A stretch of DNA of 64,000 nucleotides from Catenuloplanes atrovinosus (GTDB lineage Bacteria > Actinomycetota > Actinomycetes > Mycobacteriales > Micromonosporaceae), in contig NZ_JAVDYB010000001.1 in assembly GCF_031458235.1 (NCBI RefSeq), forward strand, positions 8,333,001 through 8,397,000. The letters run 5' to 3'. Below are positions 9,496 through 15,806 of the stretch, piece after piece. The notes under the pieces are model-generated. The model worked only from the letters and a program-made list of their open reading frames with translations, had not been told where the DNA came from and did not search any database. The number at the start of each line of letters is the position of its first letter. The stretch's first letter is position 1. A program made the translations under genes and the position numbers.

Positions 9496-11022
9496 CTGAA
9501 ACTTGAACTGCGTGGCATCACCAAGCGGTTCGGTGACCTGGTCGCCAACGACCACATCGACCTGACGGTGGAGCCGGGAGAGATCCACGCCCTGCTGGGC
9601 GAGAACGGCGCGGGCAAGTCGACGCTGATGAACGTGCTCTACGGGCTGCTGCAGCCGGACGAGGGCGAGATCGTCGTCGACGGGAAGCCCGTGCAGATCA
9701 AGGGACCGCGGGACGCGATCGCGGCCGGCATCGGCATGGTGCACCAGCACTTCATGCTGGTCCCGGTCTTCGACGTGGCGGAGAACGTGATGCTCGGCGC
9801 CGAGCAGGTCAAGGGCGGCCGGCTGGGCTGGCTGGACCGCCGCCGGGCGCGCAAGGAGATCAAGGAGGTCTCCGAGCGGTACGGCCTGCGCGTCGACCCG
9901 GACGCGCTGGTCGAGAACCTGCCGGTCGGCGTGCAGCAGCGCGTCGAGATCATCAAGGCGCTGACCCGCAACGTCGACCTGCTGATCCTGGACGAGCCGA
10001 CCGCCGTGCTCACGCCGCAGGAGACCGAGGAACTCCTCGCGGTGATGCGCACGCTCAAGGAGTCCGGCAAGTCGATCGTCTTCATCACCCACAAGCTCCA
10101 GGAGGTGAAGGCGATCGCCGACCGGATCACCGTGATCCGGCGCGGCCGGACGGTCGGCACCGCCTCCCCGGAGGCGAGCAAGGACGAGTTGGCCGCGCTG
10201 ATGGTCGGCCGCGACGTCGTGCTGGAGGTGCGCAAGCAGCCGGCGACGCCGGGCGACGCGGTGCTGGAGGTGTCCGGGCTGACGGTCCGCGACGACCGGG
10301 GCACCGTGCAGGTCGCCGGCGTGGACCTGACCGTGCGGGCCGGCGAGGTGCTGGGCATCGCGGGCGTGCAGGGCAACGGCCAGACCGAGCTGATCGAGGC
10401 CATCATGGGCCTGCGCGAGATCGAGGCGGGCACGGTCGCGCTGGCCGGTGCGCCGCTGGCCGGTCGGTCCACCAAGCAGGTGCTCCGGGCCGGCGTCGGC
10501 TACGTGCCGGAGGACCGCAGCGTGGACGGCGTGGTCAAGGAGTTCAGCGTCGCGGAGAACCTGGTGCTGGACCTCTACGACGTGGAGCCGTACGCGAGGG
10601 GCATGGTGCTGCGGCCGGACCGGATCGCGGCCAACGCCACCGAGCGGATCGAGCGGTTCGACGTGCGCACGCCGTCCGCGGAGGCGCCGGTCGGCACGCT
10701 CTCCGGCGGCAACCAGCAGAAGGTGATCGTGGCGCGGGAGATGTCCCGGCCGCTGAAGCTGCTCGTCGCCTGCCAGCCGACCCGCGGCGTGGACGTCGGG
10801 TCGATCGAGTTCATCCACGCGCAGATCGTGCACGAGCGGGACATCGGCACCGGCGTGCTGCTGGTCTCCAGCGAACTGGACGAGGTCATCGGGCTCGCGG
10901 ACCGGATCGCGGTCATGTACCGCGGACGAATCCTGGCGATCGTCGGCCCGGACACCCCCGTAGAGAAGATCGGCCTGCTGATGGCCGGCGTCACGGACGA
11001 GCCCGTTGAGGATGCGGAATGA
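9496..11022 (+). CDS. Nucleoside ABC transporter, double ATP-binding protein (NupA/YufO type)
   Basis: A 508-aa cytoplasmic ATPase with two ABC domains. Domain 1 has Walker [10 protein letters not shown], signature [11 protein letters not shown] and Walker [10 protein letters not shown]. Domain 2 has an altered Walker A (GVQGNGQTE), signature LSGGNQQKV and Walker [11 protein letters not shown], the asymmetric pattern known for sugar/nucleoside importers. The probable start is CTG at 9496: it follows AGGAGG by 6 nt and gives the expected N-terminus [17 protein letters not shown]. The first GTG at 9568 would delete the first beta strands before Walker A. The stop overlaps the first 74-bp repeat unit (ATGA at 11019). 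Confidence 0.92.
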
Positions 11023-11096
11023 GCGTGCTTGCGAGCGAATCATCGGCTCAGCGCCGACCACGCTGGAATCGGAACGTCGCAGGGAGCCCGGCATGA
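11019..11096 (+). repeat. 74-bp ATGA-to-ATGA repeat, copy 1 (encodes a 25-aa mini-ORF)
   Basis: It begins at the ATGA that overlaps the ATPase stop and ends at the ATGA that starts the permease gene. The first 41 nt match copies 2 and 3 with one mismatch each; the remaining 33 nt diverge. The frame MSVLASES...QRRP...SPA is 25 residues and closes with a TGA overlapping the permease ATG at 11093. A ribosome-binding site for the permease (AGGGAG) is supplied by the variable part. Confidence 0.85.
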
Positions 11097-12310
11097 GCAC
11101 TGAGGCCCCTGAAAAGCCGCGGGAGAGGTCGGCGGCGAGCGTCGTCCAGGCGATCTGGTCGGCGAACACGGTCACGGTGACCGTGCTGGCGATCGTGGCG
11201 GCGCTGCTGATCGGCGCCGTGCTGATCATCGTGTCGGATCCGGACGTGCTGGCCACCTACGGCTACTTCACGGCGCGGCCGTCGGACGCGCTGACCGGCA
11301 GCTGGGAACTGGTCAGCGAGGCGTACGCGAACCTGTTCAAGGGTGCCATCTTCGACCCGGAGGCGGCGTCGGTCACGGCCGCGTTCCGGCCGATCTCGGA
11401 GACGCTCACCTACGCGGCGCCGATCGTGTTCACCGGGCTCGCGGTCACGCTGGCGTTCCGTGGCGGCCTGTTCAACATCGGCGCGCAGGGCCAGGCCGTG
11501 ATGGGCACGATCCTGGCCGCGCTGGCCGGCTTCCTGATCCCGCTGCCGATCGGCGTGCACCTGGTGGTGGCGCTGGTCGCGGGCGCGGCCGGCGGCGCCT
11601 TCTGGGGCTTCCTCCCCGGCATCCTGAAGGCCCGGTTCGGCGCGCACGAGGTGATCACCTCGATCATGCTCAACTACATCGCCGGGCTGTTCCTGGGCTG
11701 GATCATCATGCAGGCCGGCGTGCACGACCCGAACCGGCAGGACGCGATCAGCAAGCCGGTGGACGCCTCCGCGCAGCTCCCGACGCTGCTCGGCGACCAG
11801 CGCGTGCACCTCGGCATCGTGCTGGCCGCGCTCGCCACCTGGGGCGTGTCCTGGCTGCTCAACCGGTCCACGTTCGGCTTCGAACTGCGCGCGGTCGGCG
11901 CCAACCCGGACGCGGCGCGGACCGCCGGGATCAGCGTGACCGGTACGTACACGATGCTGATGGTGGTCTCCGGCGGCCTGGCCGGACTGGGCGGCGCCAC
12001 GCAGCTGCTGGGCACCAGCTACTCGCTGAACCCGCTGGTGGCCGGCAACATCGGCTTCGACGGGCTGCTGGTCGCGCTGCTCGGGCGTGGCAAGCCGTGG
12101 GGGGTGCTGTGGGCCGCGATCCTGTTCGGCGCGCTGCGCGCCGGCGGCAACCGGATGCAGTCGTACGCCAGCGTGTCGCTGGAACTGGTCACCGTGCTGC
12201 AGGCGCTCATCGTCATCTTCATCGCGGCGCCCGCCCTGGTGAAGGCCATCTTCCGGCTCCGGGCCGCGCGCGCGGCCCGGCTGTCGACCAGCATCGCGAA
12301 GGGTTGGTGA
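11093..12310 (+). CDS. Nucleoside ABC transporter permease 1
   Basis: A 405-aa inner-membrane permease of the BMP/Nup (branched-chain-like) class with about nine hydrophobic segments. The family signature is clear: FTGLAVTLAFRGGLFNIGAQ (about residues 113-132), ARFGAHEVITSIMLNYIAG in the ATPase-coupling loop, and FGFELRAVGANPDAARTAGI. The ATG at 11093 has AGGGAG 6 nt upstream and overlaps the stop of the 25-aa repeat ORF. A frame extending upstream to 11006 merely reads the repeat in another phase. Pairs with permease 2 and the ATPase to form the channel. Confidence 0.92.
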   Translation: MSTEAPEKPRERSAASVVQAIWSANTVTVTVLAIVAALLIGAVLIIVSDPDVLATYGYFTARPSDALTGSWELVSEAYANLFKGAIFDPEAASVTAAFRPISETLTYAAPIVFTGLAVTLAFRGGLFNIGAQGQAVMGTILAALAGFLIPLPIGVHLVVALVAGAAGGAFWGFLPGILKARFGAHEVITSIMLNYIAGLFLGWIIMQAGVHDPNRQDAISKPVDASAQLPTLLGDQRVHLGIVLAALATWGVSWLLNRSTFGFELRAVGANPDAARTAGISVTGTYTMLMVVSGGLAGLGGATQLLGTSYSLNPLVAGNIGFDGLLVALLGRGKPWGVLWAAILFGALRAGGNRMQSYASVSLELVTVLQALIVIFIAAPALVKAIFRLRAARAARLSTSIAKGW

Positions 12311-12312
12311 CC

Positions 12313-13575
12313 ATGTCCACGACCCTTCTCACGGTGGACGATCTGGCGCCCGCGAAGTTCTGGACGCGCCAGCGCCGCAGCGGGGCCGTGCTGGCCGGCG
12401 TGGGCCTGGTGGCCGCGGTGGTGTTCGCGCTGCTGGCCGAGTCCGCGCCGGCCCGGTTCACGCTCAGCGAGGACGCCGAGGGCGCCGCGCTCAGCATCGA
12501 CGGCAAGGTCGGGGCGGCGCTGTTCGGCGTGATCACGGTCGTCGCGGGCGGGGCCCTGCTGGCCGGGGTGGCGCGGCGCTGGTTCAACGTGCTGCTCGCG
12601 GCCGGCGTGCTCGGCTTCGTGCTGTCGTTCCTCTGCTGGCAGGTGGCCGGCAGCTTCATGCCGCTGGTCGGCACCGCGAGCGGCTCGCTGGACCTGGCCG
12701 TGCCGCTGATCCTGGGCGCGCTCTGCGGCGTGCTCTGCGAGCGCACCGGCGTGGTGAACATCGGCATCGAGGGTCAGCTGCTGATGGGCGCGTTCGGCGC
12801 GGCGCTGGTCGGCACCATGACGGCGAGCGTCTGGCTGGGCGTGGTCGGCGCGATCGCCGGCAGCGTGCTCATCGCGGCGCTGCTGGCCGTGCTGGCGATC
12901 CGCTTCCTGGTGGACCAGGTGGTGATCGGCACGGTGCTGAACCTGCTGGCGCTGGGCGTCACCGGCTTCCTCTACGAGCGGCTGATGCAGACCGACGCGG
13001 CGTCGTTCAACACGCCGCCGCACATGGAGAACCTGCGCATCCCGGTGCTGGCGGACATCCCGCTGGTCGGTCCGGTGCTGTTCGACACCAGCCCGCTGGT
13101 CTACCTCGCGCTGATCCTGGTCGCGGTGATCCACTTCGGTCTCGGCCGCACCCGGTGGGGCCTGCGCACCCGCGCGGTCGGCGAGCACCCGACCGCGGCG
13201 GACACGGTGGGCATCCGGGTGCGCGGCACGCGGTACCTCAACGTGCTGCTCGGCGGCGTGGTGGCCGGGCTGGGCGGCGCGTTCTTCACGCTGGTGTCGA
13301 CCGGCGCGTTCGGCAAGAACATGACCGCGGGCGCCGGCTTCATCGCGCTCGCGGCGCTGATCTTCGGCGGGTTCCGGCCGGTGGGTGCGCTCTTCGCGGC
13401 GCTGTTCTTCGGCTTCGCGAACACGCTGGCGATCTACCTGAGCGCGATCGGCAGCCCGGTGCCGAGCCAGTTCCTGAACATGCTGCCGTACATCGCGACG
13501 ATCGTCGCGGTGGCCGGCCTGGTCGGCCGCGTGCGCGCTCCCGCCGCGGACGGCAAGCCCTACGTCACGAGCTAG
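12313..13575 (+). CDS. Nucleoside ABC transporter permease 2
   Basis: A 420-aa permease of the same family as its upstream neighbour, with about ten hydrophobic segments. Family motifs are CERTGVVNIGIEGQLLMGAF, IRFLVDQVVIGTVLNLLALG and RTRAVGEHPTAADTVGIRVR. The N-terminus has an extra hydrophobic pair before the first conserved segment, as is usual for the second permease of these operons. The start is either GTG 12307 or ATG 12313; the latter is reported, and both lie within a few bases of the permease 1 stop, giving tight coupling. A strong hairpin follows the stop. Confidence 0.9.
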   Translation: MSTTLLTVDDLAPAKFWTRQRRSGAVLAGVGLVAAVVFALLAESAPARFTLSEDAEGAALSIDGKVGAALFGVITVVAGGALLAGVARRWFNVLLAAGVLGFVLSFLCWQVAGSFMPLVGTASGSLDLAVPLILGALCGVLCERTGVVNIGIEGQLLMGAFGAALVGTMTASVWLGVVGAIAGSVLIAALLAVLAIRFLVDQVVIGTVLNLLALGVTGFLYERLMQTDAASFNTPPHMENLRIPVLADIPLVGPVLFDTSPLVYLALILVAVIHFGLGRTRWGLRTRAVGEHPTAADTVGIRVRGTRYLNVLLGGVVAGLGGAFFTLVSTGAFGKNMTAGAGFIALAALIFGGFRPVGALFAALFFGFANTLAIYLSAIGSPVPSQFLNMLPYIATIVAVAGLVGRVRAPAADGKPYVTS

Positions 13576-13586
13576 CGTTGCGGGTT

Positions 13587-13618
13587 CCCCGGGCGTCCAT
13601 GGGTATGGACGCCCGGGG
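13587..13618 (+). terminator. Hairpin terminator after the permease genes
   Basis: A perfect 14-bp stem, CCCCGGGCGTCCAT / ATGGACGCCCGGGG, with a GGGT tetraloop follows the permease 2 stop by 11 bp and precedes the cytidine deaminase gene. It may terminate the transporter transcript or allow partial read-through into the catabolic genes. Confidence 0.8.
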
Positions 13619-13652
13619 ACCGTGCGCATACGTCAGGATTGAGGGCGTGACT

Positions 13653-14354
13653 ATGGAGATCAACTGGCCCGAGCTGCGTGCCGCCGCCGTCGAGGTGATG
13701 CAGCGGGCGTACGCGCCCTACTCGCGCTTCCCGGTCGGCGCGGCCGCGCTGGTGGACGACGGCCGGGTGATCGTCGGCTGCAACGTGGAGAACGCGGGGT
13801 ACGGCGTGGCGCTCTGCGCGGAGTGCGGCGTGGTCTCCCAGCTGCACGCCGGCGGCGGCGGGCGGATCGTGGCGCTCTCCTGCGTGGACGCGACCGGCCA
13901 GCCGATCATGCCGTGCGGCCGGTGCCGCCAGCTGCTGTGGGAGAACGGCGGGCCGAACTGCCTGGTCGAGGCATACCCGCGGCCGCTGACCATGGACGAG
14001 CTGATGCCGCACGGCTTCGGCCCGGCGGATCTGGCCGTGGTGACCAGCTCGCCGGCCCCGAGCGTGCCGGTGCGGCTGTCGAAGTGGATCGGGCAGGGCA
14101 CCGTCTTCGTCCACCCGGAGCTGGACGGCGGCAAGCAGGTGTGGACCGGCTACTGGGACCGCTCCAGCGGCGCCGAGGAGTCCGAGCGCGCCGGAATCCT
14201 GGAGGAGGGCCCGATCTGGCGGGACACCGAGGAGGGTGTCCGGTGGGGCCGGGCGCGGACGCCGCGGGTGATCGTGGTGGACGCGGAGGGCGCGATGTCG
14301 TGGGCGGGCGAGGGTGACCCGCCGGCGGCGTTCAACGAGGGGATTCCGGCATGA
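13653..14354 (+). CDS. cdd: Cytidine deaminase with a C-terminal extension
   Basis: A 233-aa enzyme deaminating cytidine/deoxycytidine to uridine/deoxyuridine. The zinc site of the homotetrameric type is intact: CAE at residues 55-57 (Cys55 ligand, Glu57 proton shuttle) and PCGRC (Cys88, Cys91). The catalytic domain ends near residue 130, the usual full length. About 100 further residues (RLSKWIGQGTVFVHPELDGG ... RARTPRVIVVDAEGAMSWAG) are not part of the standard fold. ATG 13653 is preceded by GAGGG at a normal distance. Its stop overlaps the ATG of repeat copy 2. It feeds the deoA step downstream. Confidence 0.92.
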   Translation: MEINWPELRAAAVEVMQRAYAPYSRFPVGAAALVDDGRVIVGCNVENAGYGVALCAECGVVSQLHAGGGGRIVALSCVDATGQPIMPCGRCRQLLWENGGPNCLVEAYPRPLTMDELMPHGFGPADLAVVTSSPAPSVPVRLSKWIGQGTVFVHPELDGGKQVWTGYWDRSSGAEESERAGILEEGPIWRDTEEGVRWGRARTPRVIVVDAEGAMSWAGEGDPPAAFNEGIPA

Positions 14355-14428
14355 GCGAGCTTGCGAGCGAATCATTGGCTCAGCGCCGACCACACGGATA
14401 CGCCAGCGGTAAGGATGATCCGGCATGA
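14351..14428 (+). repeat. 74-bp ATGA-to-ATGA repeat, copy 2 (25-aa mini-ORF)
   Basis: It opens at the ATGA overlapping the cdd stop and closes at the ATGA that opens copy 3, exactly 74 bp later. The frame starts MSELASESLAQRRP, has 25 residues and ends in GGCATGA. It is in tandem with copy 3. One base (T at the TCATTGG position) differs from the conserved 41-nt core. Confidence 0.85.
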
Positions 14429-14502
14429 GCGAGCTTGCGAGCGAATCATCGGCTCAGCGCCGACCGTACGGATACCGCACCCGGAAGGACGGTTCGGCAT
14501 GA
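14425..14502 (+). repeat. 74-bp ATGA-to-ATGA repeat, copy 3 (25-aa mini-ORF)
   Basis: Tandem neighbour of copy 2. The frame starts MSELASESSAQRRP, has 25 residues, and its TGA overlaps the ATG of the thymidine phosphorylase gene (14499). The core is identical to the consensus; the variable part carries the GGAAGGA ribosome-binding site used by that gene. Confidence 0.85.
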
Positions 14503-15806
14503 GCATCACGGCGATCGAGGTCATCCGGGCCAAGCGGGACGGTGGCGTGCTGAGTGACGCGCAGATCGACTGGGTGATCGACGCGTACACCCGGGGCGTG
14601 GTCGCGGACGAGCAGATGTCCGCACTGGCCATGGCGATCCTGCTGCGTGGCATGACCGGGGCGGAGATCGCGCGCTGGACCGCCGCGATGATCGCCAGCG
14701 GCGAGCGGCTGGACCTGAGCGCGGCCGGCCGGCCGACCGCGGACAAGCACTCCACCGGTGGCGTCGGCGACAAGATCACGTTGCCGCTCACGCCGCTGGT
14801 GGCCGCGTGCGGCGTGGCGGTGCCGCAGCTGTCCGGCCGGGGTCTCGGCCACACCGGCGGCACGCTGGACAAGCTGGAGTCGATCCCGGGCTGGCGGGCC
14901 CGGCTGAGCAACGAGGAGTTCCGCACCCAGCTGCGCGACGTGGGCGCGGTGATCTGCGCGGCCGGCGACGGGCTGGCGCCGGCGGACCGCAAGCTCTACG
15001 CGTTGCGCGATGTGACCGGCACGGTGGAGGCGATCCCGCTGATCGCGAGTTCCATCATGAGCAAGAAGATCGCCGAGGGCACCGGCGCGCTGGTGCTGGA
15101 CGTGAAGGTCGGCTCCGGCGCGTTCATGAAGAACCTGGACGACGCGCGCGAGCTGGCCCGCACCATGGTGGAGCTCGGCGGCGCGCACGGCGTGAACACG
15201 GTGGCGGTGCTGACCGACATGTCGGTGCCGCTCGGCCTGGCGGTCGGCAACGCGGTCGAGGTCGAGGAGTCGGTCGAGGTGCTGGCCGGCGGCGGACCGG
15301 CGGACGTGGTGGAGCTGACGCTGATCCTGGCCCGGGAGATGCTGGCGGCGGCCGGCCGCACCGACGTGGATCCGGCGGACGCGCTGGCCGGGGGCCGGGC
15401 GATGGACCGCTGGCGGGAGATGATCCGCGCGCAGGGCGGCGACCCGGACGCGCCGCTGCCGGTGGCGCCGGAGATCGAGACGCTGACCGCCGACGCGGAC
15501 GGGTACGTGACCGCGATGGACGCGTACGACATCGGGGTGGCCGCCTGGCGGCTCGGCGCGGGCCGGGCGCGCAAGGAGGACGCGGTCAGCGCGGGCGCCG
15601 GGATCGTGCTGAAGGTGAAGCCCGGCGACCCGGTGCGGCGCGGCCAGCCGCTGCTGGAGCTGCGCGCCGACGACCCGGCGCGGATCGAGTCGGCCCGCGA
15701 ACTGGCGCGCGGTGCGATTGCCATCGCCGGCCGGCCGGCGGAGCGCTCGCCGCTCATCATTGAGCGGATTGGACTCCCCATGGTGCGGACGTCGCTGACC
15801 AGCTAA
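14499..15806 (+). CDS. deoA: Thymidine phosphorylase
   Basis: A 435-aa pyrimidine-nucleoside phosphorylase that splits thymidine/deoxyuridine with phosphate into base and deoxyribose-1-phosphate. The family signature GRGLGHTGGTLDKLESIPG is present, as is the phosphate-binding KHSTGGVGDK. The C-terminal alpha/beta domain has the AGxGIVLKVKPGDPVRRGQPL pattern. Length matches the family. ATG 14499 has GGAAGGA upstream and overlaps the stop of repeat copy 3. The neighbouring transporter and cytidine deaminase make a complete uptake and breakdown route; the sugar phosphate would be handled by deoC located near 42 kb. Confidence 0.96.
   Translation: MSITAIEVIRAKRDGGVLSDAQIDWVIDAYTRGVVADEQMSALAMAILLRGMTGAEIARWTAAMIASGERLDLSAAGRPTADKHSTGGVGDKITLPLTPLVAACGVAVPQLSGRGLGHTGGTLDKLESIPGWRARLSNEEFRTQLRDVGAVICAAGDGLAPADRKLYALRDVTGTVEAIPLIASSIMSKKIAEGTGALVLDVKVGSGAFMKNLDDARELARTMVELGGAHGVNTVAVLTDMSVPLGLAVGNAVEVEESVEVLAGGGPADVVELTLILAREMLAAAGRTDVDPADALAGGRAMDRWREMIRAQGGDPDAPLPVAPEIETLTADADGYVTAMDAYDIGVAAWRLGAGRARKEDAVSAGAGIVLKVKPGDPVRRGQPLLELRADDPARIESARELARGAIAIAGRPAERSPLIIERIGLPMVRTSLTS

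Follow-up and report, generated by a model that had tools for sequence, protein, structure and literature searches.

A short MIRU-like repeat of Catenuloplanes atrovinosus that probably inserts at translation starts and keeps neighboring genes coupled

A 64,000-nucleotide (nt) stretch of the Catenuloplanes atrovinosus genome (assembly GCF_031458235.1, contig NZ_JAVDYB010000001.1, positions 8,333,001 to 8,397,000; hereafter the window) contains three copies of a 74-nt repeat that runs from one ATGA to the next and encodes a mini open reading frame (mini-ORF). We conclude, with a probability of about 0.8, that these units are copies of a short, non-autonomous mobile repeat that is similar to mycobacterial interspersed repetitive units (MIRUs), targets translation starts, and preserves translational coupling between the genes that it separates. 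The case is carried by the copy number of the repeat, its precise placement at NTGA, the reading frames of the units, and the presence or absence of a ribosome-binding site (RBS) at their ends.

The three units in the window, reported in an earlier note made from the letters alone, proved exact on re-reading. They and their RBS-like motifs, all assigned from the sequence, are as follows.

11019..11092, + strand: unit 1, 74 nt, mini-ORF, between the stop of an ATP-binding cassette (ABC) ATPase gene and the start of a permease gene
14351..14424, + strand: unit 2, 74 nt, mini-ORF MSELASESLAQRRPHGYASGKDDPA and stop, begins at the cdd stop
14425..14498, + strand: unit 3, 74 nt, mini-ORF MSELASESSAQRRPYGYRTRKDGSA and stop, terminates at the deoA start
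11081..11086, + strand: RBS-like AGGGAG in unit 1, ahead of the permease ATG at 11093
14411..14415, + strand: RBS-like AAGGA in unit 2, ahead of the unit 3 ATG
14483..14489, + strand: RBS-like GGAAGGA in unit 3, ahead of the deoA ATG at 14499

Each unit begins with ATGA, is followed immediately by another ATGA, and encodes 25 residues plus a stop whose TGA overlaps the next ATG. The stops upstream are those of the ABC ATPase gene (TGA 11020-11022) and cdd (TGA 14352-14354), and the starts downstream are those of the permease gene (11093), the third unit (14425), and deoA (14499). The division into a conserved 41-nt head and a variable 33-nt tail also held, with 1-2 and 10-20 mismatches between copies, respectively. 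An Rfam search of 10900-14600 gave nothing reaching the gathering threshold, and a distant blastn search of phage and plasmid collections (E <= 1e-5) gave no match.

The repeat is abundant in its own genome. A 24-nt core, allowing up to 3 mismatches, matched 145 times (69 forward, 76 reverse) in the single contig of 8,906,892 bases, compared to 0 matches for the reversed control pattern, indicating that the core copies are not due to chance. A sequence-only model of positions 5-43 found at least 150 copies in this genome and 31-49 copies in each of four genomes of the same genus (E <= 1). We fetched 40 regions around the first matches and 11 more loci, ten of which were new clusters found by the model, and together with the window these gave 60 arrays of 1-6 units with a total of 139 of the at least 150 units; 138 units were analysed. 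Thirteen chance clusters at 6-7 mismatches and one degenerate copy without a start (L077) were left out before counting.

The arrays are placed precisely at translation starts. In 56 of the 60 arrays the homologous first position is occupied exactly by NTGA, which accounts for 0.6% of positions in these loci. Three units that carry small deletions had the NTGA displaced, by 3, 8 or 12 nt, and the one array that was dropped lacked it. The first tetranucleotide of the 59 arrays kept was ATGA in 55, GTGA in 3 and TTGA in 1. To its left, GNC was over-represented (0.83 for G at -3 and 0.83 for C at -1, compared to 0.53 and 0.44 at 36 background junctions). In 49/59 arrays the NTGA contained the stop of an upstream open frame of 100 codons or more; in the other 10/59 there was only a start codon. 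The target is thus the start codon NTGA and not, as the earlier note had it, the stop/start junction as such; the other part of that proposal, that the junction is duplicated on insertion and coupling kept, is supported by these arrays and their controls, by the empty sites, and by the RBSs kept where re-initiation is needed (both below).

Almost all of the arrays lead without a break into the next gene. In 58/59 arrays, hand-over or in-frame run-through connected the units to a downstream frame of 60 codons or more. When the rule was tightened (80 codons or more, starts limited to ATG or GTG) the number was 56/59, made up of 44 with hand-over and 12 in frame. When an upstream frame of at least 100 codons was required as well, 46/59 arrays remained, compared to 341 of the 3323 other [AG]TGA sites in the same loci that served as controls. 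The mini-ORF route to a long frame (mini-ORF no longer than 60 codons) was open to 218/3323 control sites, with 57/3323 having the upstream frame as well.

Many of the occupied sites are empty in relatives. We queried the joined flanks of 26 of the 31 eligible sites against the four genomes of the same genus and compared 60 orthologous regions for 23 sites, leaving out sites 11, 15 and 18. Counting a region as empty if it was within -25 to +6 nt, we found 39 of the 60 to be empty, 27 of them without a single extra base (ATGA in 17 and GTGA in 8), proportions that are not a fair sample because 40 regions were chosen for a match spanning the join and the other 20 were mostly split or longer. Nine of the remaining regions contained the core and 12 had other inserts, some of which were recognisable as diverged or deleted units. 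At 18 of the 23 sites at least one relative was empty, indicating that no such gene needs the unit. In the window, the site of unit 1 is empty in three relatives (G001, G002 and G003). The two-unit insert between cdd and deoA is missing in G002 and G003; G002 reads GGGGATTCCGGC up to the join and ATGACTTTC after it, and C. atrovinosus has the identical left flank, two units, and then ATGAGC. Site 2 was occupied in all five genomes (4 units in C. atrovinosus and 1-3 in the four relatives), and sites 3, 14, 16 and 23 were occupied in certain relatives and empty in others. We also found deletion derivatives of 38 and 50 nt, in which much of the peptide is gone and the phase is retained.

Two other features of the junctions were seen in this comparison. 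In G004, a 65-nt insert (L182) that differs over most of its sequence and has a 3' end like that of the 77-nt units described below lies at the same ATGA junction between cdd and deoA; start junctions may be targets of repeats. At sites 6, 19, 20 and 24, some relatives have GTGA at the empty site, where the insert in C. atrovinosus is flanked by ATGA at either end; perhaps ATG is preferred or imposed by the element.

Units in the same array resemble each other more than units at different loci do. The median identity was 68/74 within a locus and 54/74 between loci, with a maximum of 71/74 between loci. This difference would be expected if the arrays had arisen solely because ancestral gene ends were duplicated locally in tandem, without mobility, but the same core is present at about 60 loci, many of them with precise empty sites in relatives. 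We consider that origin practically untenable: it is refuted for the first copy wherever relatives are empty, although local duplication is still likely for the later copies.

Arrays exist in two states that differ in phase. Of the 79 internal spacings, 39 were 74 nt, 38 were 75 nt, and there was one each of 72 and 64 nt; within any array the spacings were uniformly 74 or uniformly 75 nt, save for the one array that had both exceptions. These in-frame 75-nt arrays amend the picture given in the earlier note. A spacing of 74 nt (3n+2) calls for re-initiation, whereas one of 75 nt (3n) gives in-frame run-through. ATGA began the next unit after 39/39 of the 74-nt spacings, and NTGA of any kind after only 5/38 of the 75-nt spacings. 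The per-locus mean energy of pairing with the anti-Shine-Dalgarno sequence was -8.0 for 74-nt internal ends (21 loci) and -7.9 for terminal ends (42 loci), in contrast to -3.4 for 75-nt internal ends (14 loci; Mann-Whitney p = 1.1e-4 against 74-nt internal ends and 1.8e-5 against terminal ends). Based on these pairing energies and NTGA counts, units that have to re-initiate possess an RBS and start, and units read through in frame mostly lack them. We regard this contrast as the strongest indication at the sequence level of translation of the units, which is probable.

Translation of the units need not mean that the peptides have a function. The possibility that the mini-ORFs yield functional small peptides (MSELASESSAQRRP...) gains something from the maintenance of the frame and from the core differences, of which 53/138 (0.38) were synonymous compared to about 0.28 expected. 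We nonetheless regard it as improbable, since the C-terminal half varies freely and the 38- and 50-nt deletion derivatives drop much of the peptide yet retain phase. Searches of the peptides against Pfam and NCBIfam gave no family above its curated cut-off on the repeat part, and the protein of L047, translated in the correct frame, had sub-threshold family matches only. The idea of a small-peptide source, raised in the earlier note, thus found no support past the signs of translation themselves.

The repeat is not confined to this genus. With strict filters and E <= 0.001, 36 of 150 genomes of the family had matches, in 12 of 44 genera including Catenuloplanes. The suggestion that similar sequences occur in other Micromonosporaceae was right and also too narrow: the exact 24-nt core was found in at least 120 stretches among named genomes, and the hosts among the matches listed are Micromonosporaceae, many Pseudonocardiaceae, Nocardia, Mycolicibacterium septicum, Geodermatophilus and Actinospica. 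Copy-rich genomes include those of Kutzneria sp. CA-103260 (31 copies) and Pseudonocardia humida (40 copies).

The placement of these copies resembles that in C. atrovinosus. We analysed 80 loci, and the counts that follow are among the matches listed. All 84 core matches came after [AG]TGA (81 A, 3 G), a pattern in which the search itself fixed the GA. Under a loose rule 80/84 led into a downstream frame, 23 of these in frame, with 4 of the 80 leaving the available DNA before 80 codons. With the stricter rule applied to the first units, 70 of the 76 scored did so (4 run off), compared to 3123/5700 control sites; with an upstream frame as well the numbers were 60/76 and 624/5700, and for hand-over 51/76, compared to 414/5700 controls by the mini-ORF route. 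Hand-over lengths were 32-125 nt, mainly 74 and 77, with the 3n+2 phase imposed by definition. Among Mycobacterium genomes, 46/297 matched the core. Twenty loci picked from these had mostly 65-nt units or 30/33-nt in-frame N-terminal repeats, and the chain was kept (at least 70 codons) in 19 of them; the twentieth stops at TGATG.

Some of the copies in other genomes have altered forms. In Mycobacterium (L353, L357, L363, L366 and others), 30-nt in-frame repeats (MSEL.SES..) extend the N-termini of seemingly related proteins. In L289, L292 and L266, in-frame copies give conserved proteins N-terminal tails, some with tandem ELASESS-type repeats, and such tails, of about 50 residues, lie ahead of allantoicase and ABC ATPase domains. 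In L215-L217 (G073 and G092), a palindrome and a stop come after the conserved core in place of an RBS and next start; this form is perhaps derived or terminator-like in that genus.

In some lineages the end of the unit forms a conserved hairpin. The 77/80-nt units of Micromonosporaceae (29 distinct ends) have a 14-bp hairpin that pairs the end of the mini-ORF with the next RBS and start codon: 85.4% of alignment cells were paired, and double-change cells numbered 24, compared to 7.3 in shuffles (0/500 reached 24), with slid controls at or below 57%. For the 65-nt mycobacterial units (12 ends) the values were 88.3% paired, 13 double-change cells compared to 4.5 (0/500), and slid controls at or below 44%, although the number of pairs with a double change was unexceptional (72/500). 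The RBS sits in the 3' arm in both. These structures were drawn up from members of the alignments, which biases the comparison with slid controls in their favour. Among unit ends taken from named genomes, 30/52 folded with z below -2. Units from C. atrovinosus had no such hairpin and folded no better than shuffles (mean z -0.04, n=45), indicating that the hairpin plays no part in the working of the window's copies, and no covarying fold was found in the 39-nt core. We did not rely on a mixed alignment of Pseudonocardiaceae and others (A4), which was mis-registered between subgroups and weaker (55.6% paired); its double-change pairs and pair types were no better than shuffles, and a slide of -3 scored equally high.

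The hairpins bear on whether the units serve the host. A coupling or control cassette under selection, tying downstream translation to upstream translation and in some lineages doing so through a hairpin that would hide the next RBS until the mini-ORF has been translated, would account for the covariation in the 77/80-nt and 65-nt units. We think this unlikely because the units of C. atrovinosus lack the fold, because 18 of the 23 occupied sites compared are empty in at least one relative, and because of the bias just described. A broader and tentative proposal, to which we give somewhat less than even odds, is that a single superfamily ranging from Mycobacterium to Micromonosporaceae and Pseudonocardiaceae targets and rebuilds translation starts, that in several lineages with the RBS-hiding hairpin it acts as a transplantable translational-coupling device, and that MIRUs are its mycobacterial branch.

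For the mobile, start-targeting repeat that we favour, we propose the following mechanism. The element would target a translation start NTGA, preferably preceded by GNC. Insertion would keep the host RBS and ATGA at the left, now opening the 25-codon mini-ORF, and bring a new RBS and ATGA at the right, now opening the old downstream gene. Ribosomes entering at the original start would translate the mini-ORF, terminate at its TGA and re-initiate at the ATG that overlaps it, where the following unit or gene begins, so that the operon would be lengthened with little expression lost and the effect on the host would probably be near neutral. Tandem arrays would grow and shrink locally by slippage or unequal recombination and be kept translatable at 74 or 75 nt, and the first insertion at a locus would have to originate elsewhere, presumably mobilised in trans by an enzyme.

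Several observations weigh against this proposal. No transposase or autonomous parent turned up, a census of insertion sequences not having been made. One array (L055) leads to a frame of 53 codons and is the sole exception to the 58/59, and two more (L031 and L042) also fail the stricter rule. Of the control sites, 1909/3323 likewise reach a long frame, so the unbroken chain alone is weak evidence in GC-rich DNA. The 75-nt arrays may have been without internal sites from the outset and not by loss, and the mixed states at sites 3, 14, 16 and 23 could equally mean repeated insertion or precise loss. Lastly, copies at separate loci are at most 71/74 identical, and thus no very recent burst is apparent.

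The units in the window lie in a nucleoside uptake and salvage cluster. It encodes a Bmp-type binding protein, an ABC ATPase, two permeases, cytidine deaminase and pyrimidine nucleoside phosphorylase, with adenosine deaminase farther along. The genes next to the units are as follows.

9568..11022, + strand: ABC transporter ATPase (PF00005), start uncertain; TGA stop within ATGA 11019-11022
11093..12310, + strand: permease gene 3' of unit 1 (PF02653)
13653..14354, + strand: cytidine deaminase, cdd (PF00383), start assumed at ATG 13653; TGA stop within ATGA 14351-14354
14499..15806, + strand: pyrimidine nucleoside phosphorylase, deoA-like, 3' of unit 3 (PF00591, PF07831)

We believe that this repeat would have spread through an actinobacterial genome by inserting at start codons and rebuilding the start signal, such that genes can stay readable. 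An environmental genus with at least 150 copies and empty-site relatives makes start-codon insertion, mini-ORF coupling and array growth testable outside pathogens. The arrays are natural experiments, in that re-initiating units carry an RBS and start and read-through units are mostly without both. There is also a warning for annotation: many 25-residue open reading frames and SELASESSAQR-like N-terminal extensions in actinobacteria derive from a repeat.

The family differs from two other kinds of small bacterial repeat. Rickettsia palindromic elements, described in PMC2229807 together with other bacterial miniature inverted-repeat transposable elements that bear open reading frames, are likewise small and non-autonomous, with an open frame that fuses in frame with host proteins; they are palindromic, have terminal inverted repeats, and can sit inside genes. 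The window's units sit at translation starts and have no stable fold in their own genome. Repetitive extragenic palindromic (REP) elements have a high copy number, a short unit and a tetranucleotide at the edge. Our family is similar in these respects (more than 100 copies) and has a subterminal hairpin in some lineages, as might be expected of a REP-like element moved by a REP-associated tyrosine transposase (RAYT). However, the units of C. atrovinosus are not palindromic and fold no better than shuffles, and the Y1 transposase domain (PF01797, Y1_Tnp) occurred in only one of 8 copy-bearing genomes, once in G169, and not in the other seven (G000-G004, G117 and G168, including that of C. atrovinosus). 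We regard a REP-like origin as largely refuted and highly improbable, though a RAYT could have been lost.

The closest resemblance is to MIRUs. These repeats have served for typing for decades, tuberculosis bacteria being fingerprinted by them. They were described by Supply et al. in 1997, reportedly with a mini-ORF co-oriented with its neighbors and ends that overlap them at DTGA. Our family likewise consists of short repeats with many interspersed copies and variable tandem arrays (74/75-nt units, 1-6 per array) and has a co-oriented mini-ORF that overlaps its neighbors (NTGA at the exact first position in 56/60 arrays, upstream frame in 49/59). A mycobacterial repeat, GATGCAGAGCGNAGCGATGAGGAGGAG (L372-L381), which is probably the MIRU, was found in 147/297 Mycobacterium genomes with tandem periods such as 53, 50, 51, 52 and 54. 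It lay at a start with a similar overlap in most of 10 loci, but not in L373 or in one copy of L376. Compared by eye, this motif of 53-nt period is unlike the window's core, and it has little in common with the 77-nt units beyond GAGCGNAGCG and an RBS; no genome of the tuberculosis complex was identified.

In the literature, title and abstract openings revealed no such repeat described outside mycobacteria. Insertion at start codons, with -4 coupling to the targeted gene, has been reported for MIRUs, a likeness to the 27/60 orthologous regions here with zero extra bases. According to PMC4213456, MIRUs measure 77 and 53 bp and are restricted to Mycobacterium leprae and the M. tuberculosis complex, unlike in a review that places them in many mycobacteria. 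The family in the window differs in that its hosts reach Micromonosporaceae, Pseudonocardiaceae, Nocardia and others, with no mycobacterial restriction, in having at least 150 copies in one genome, in its split between 74-nt re-initiating and 75-nt in-frame arrays with matching presence of an RBS, and in the covarying hairpin of some lineages. Judged by its sequence features, the family appears to work like MIRU with an apparently different primary sequence and a wider host range, and we regard it as a variant within the MIRU kind.

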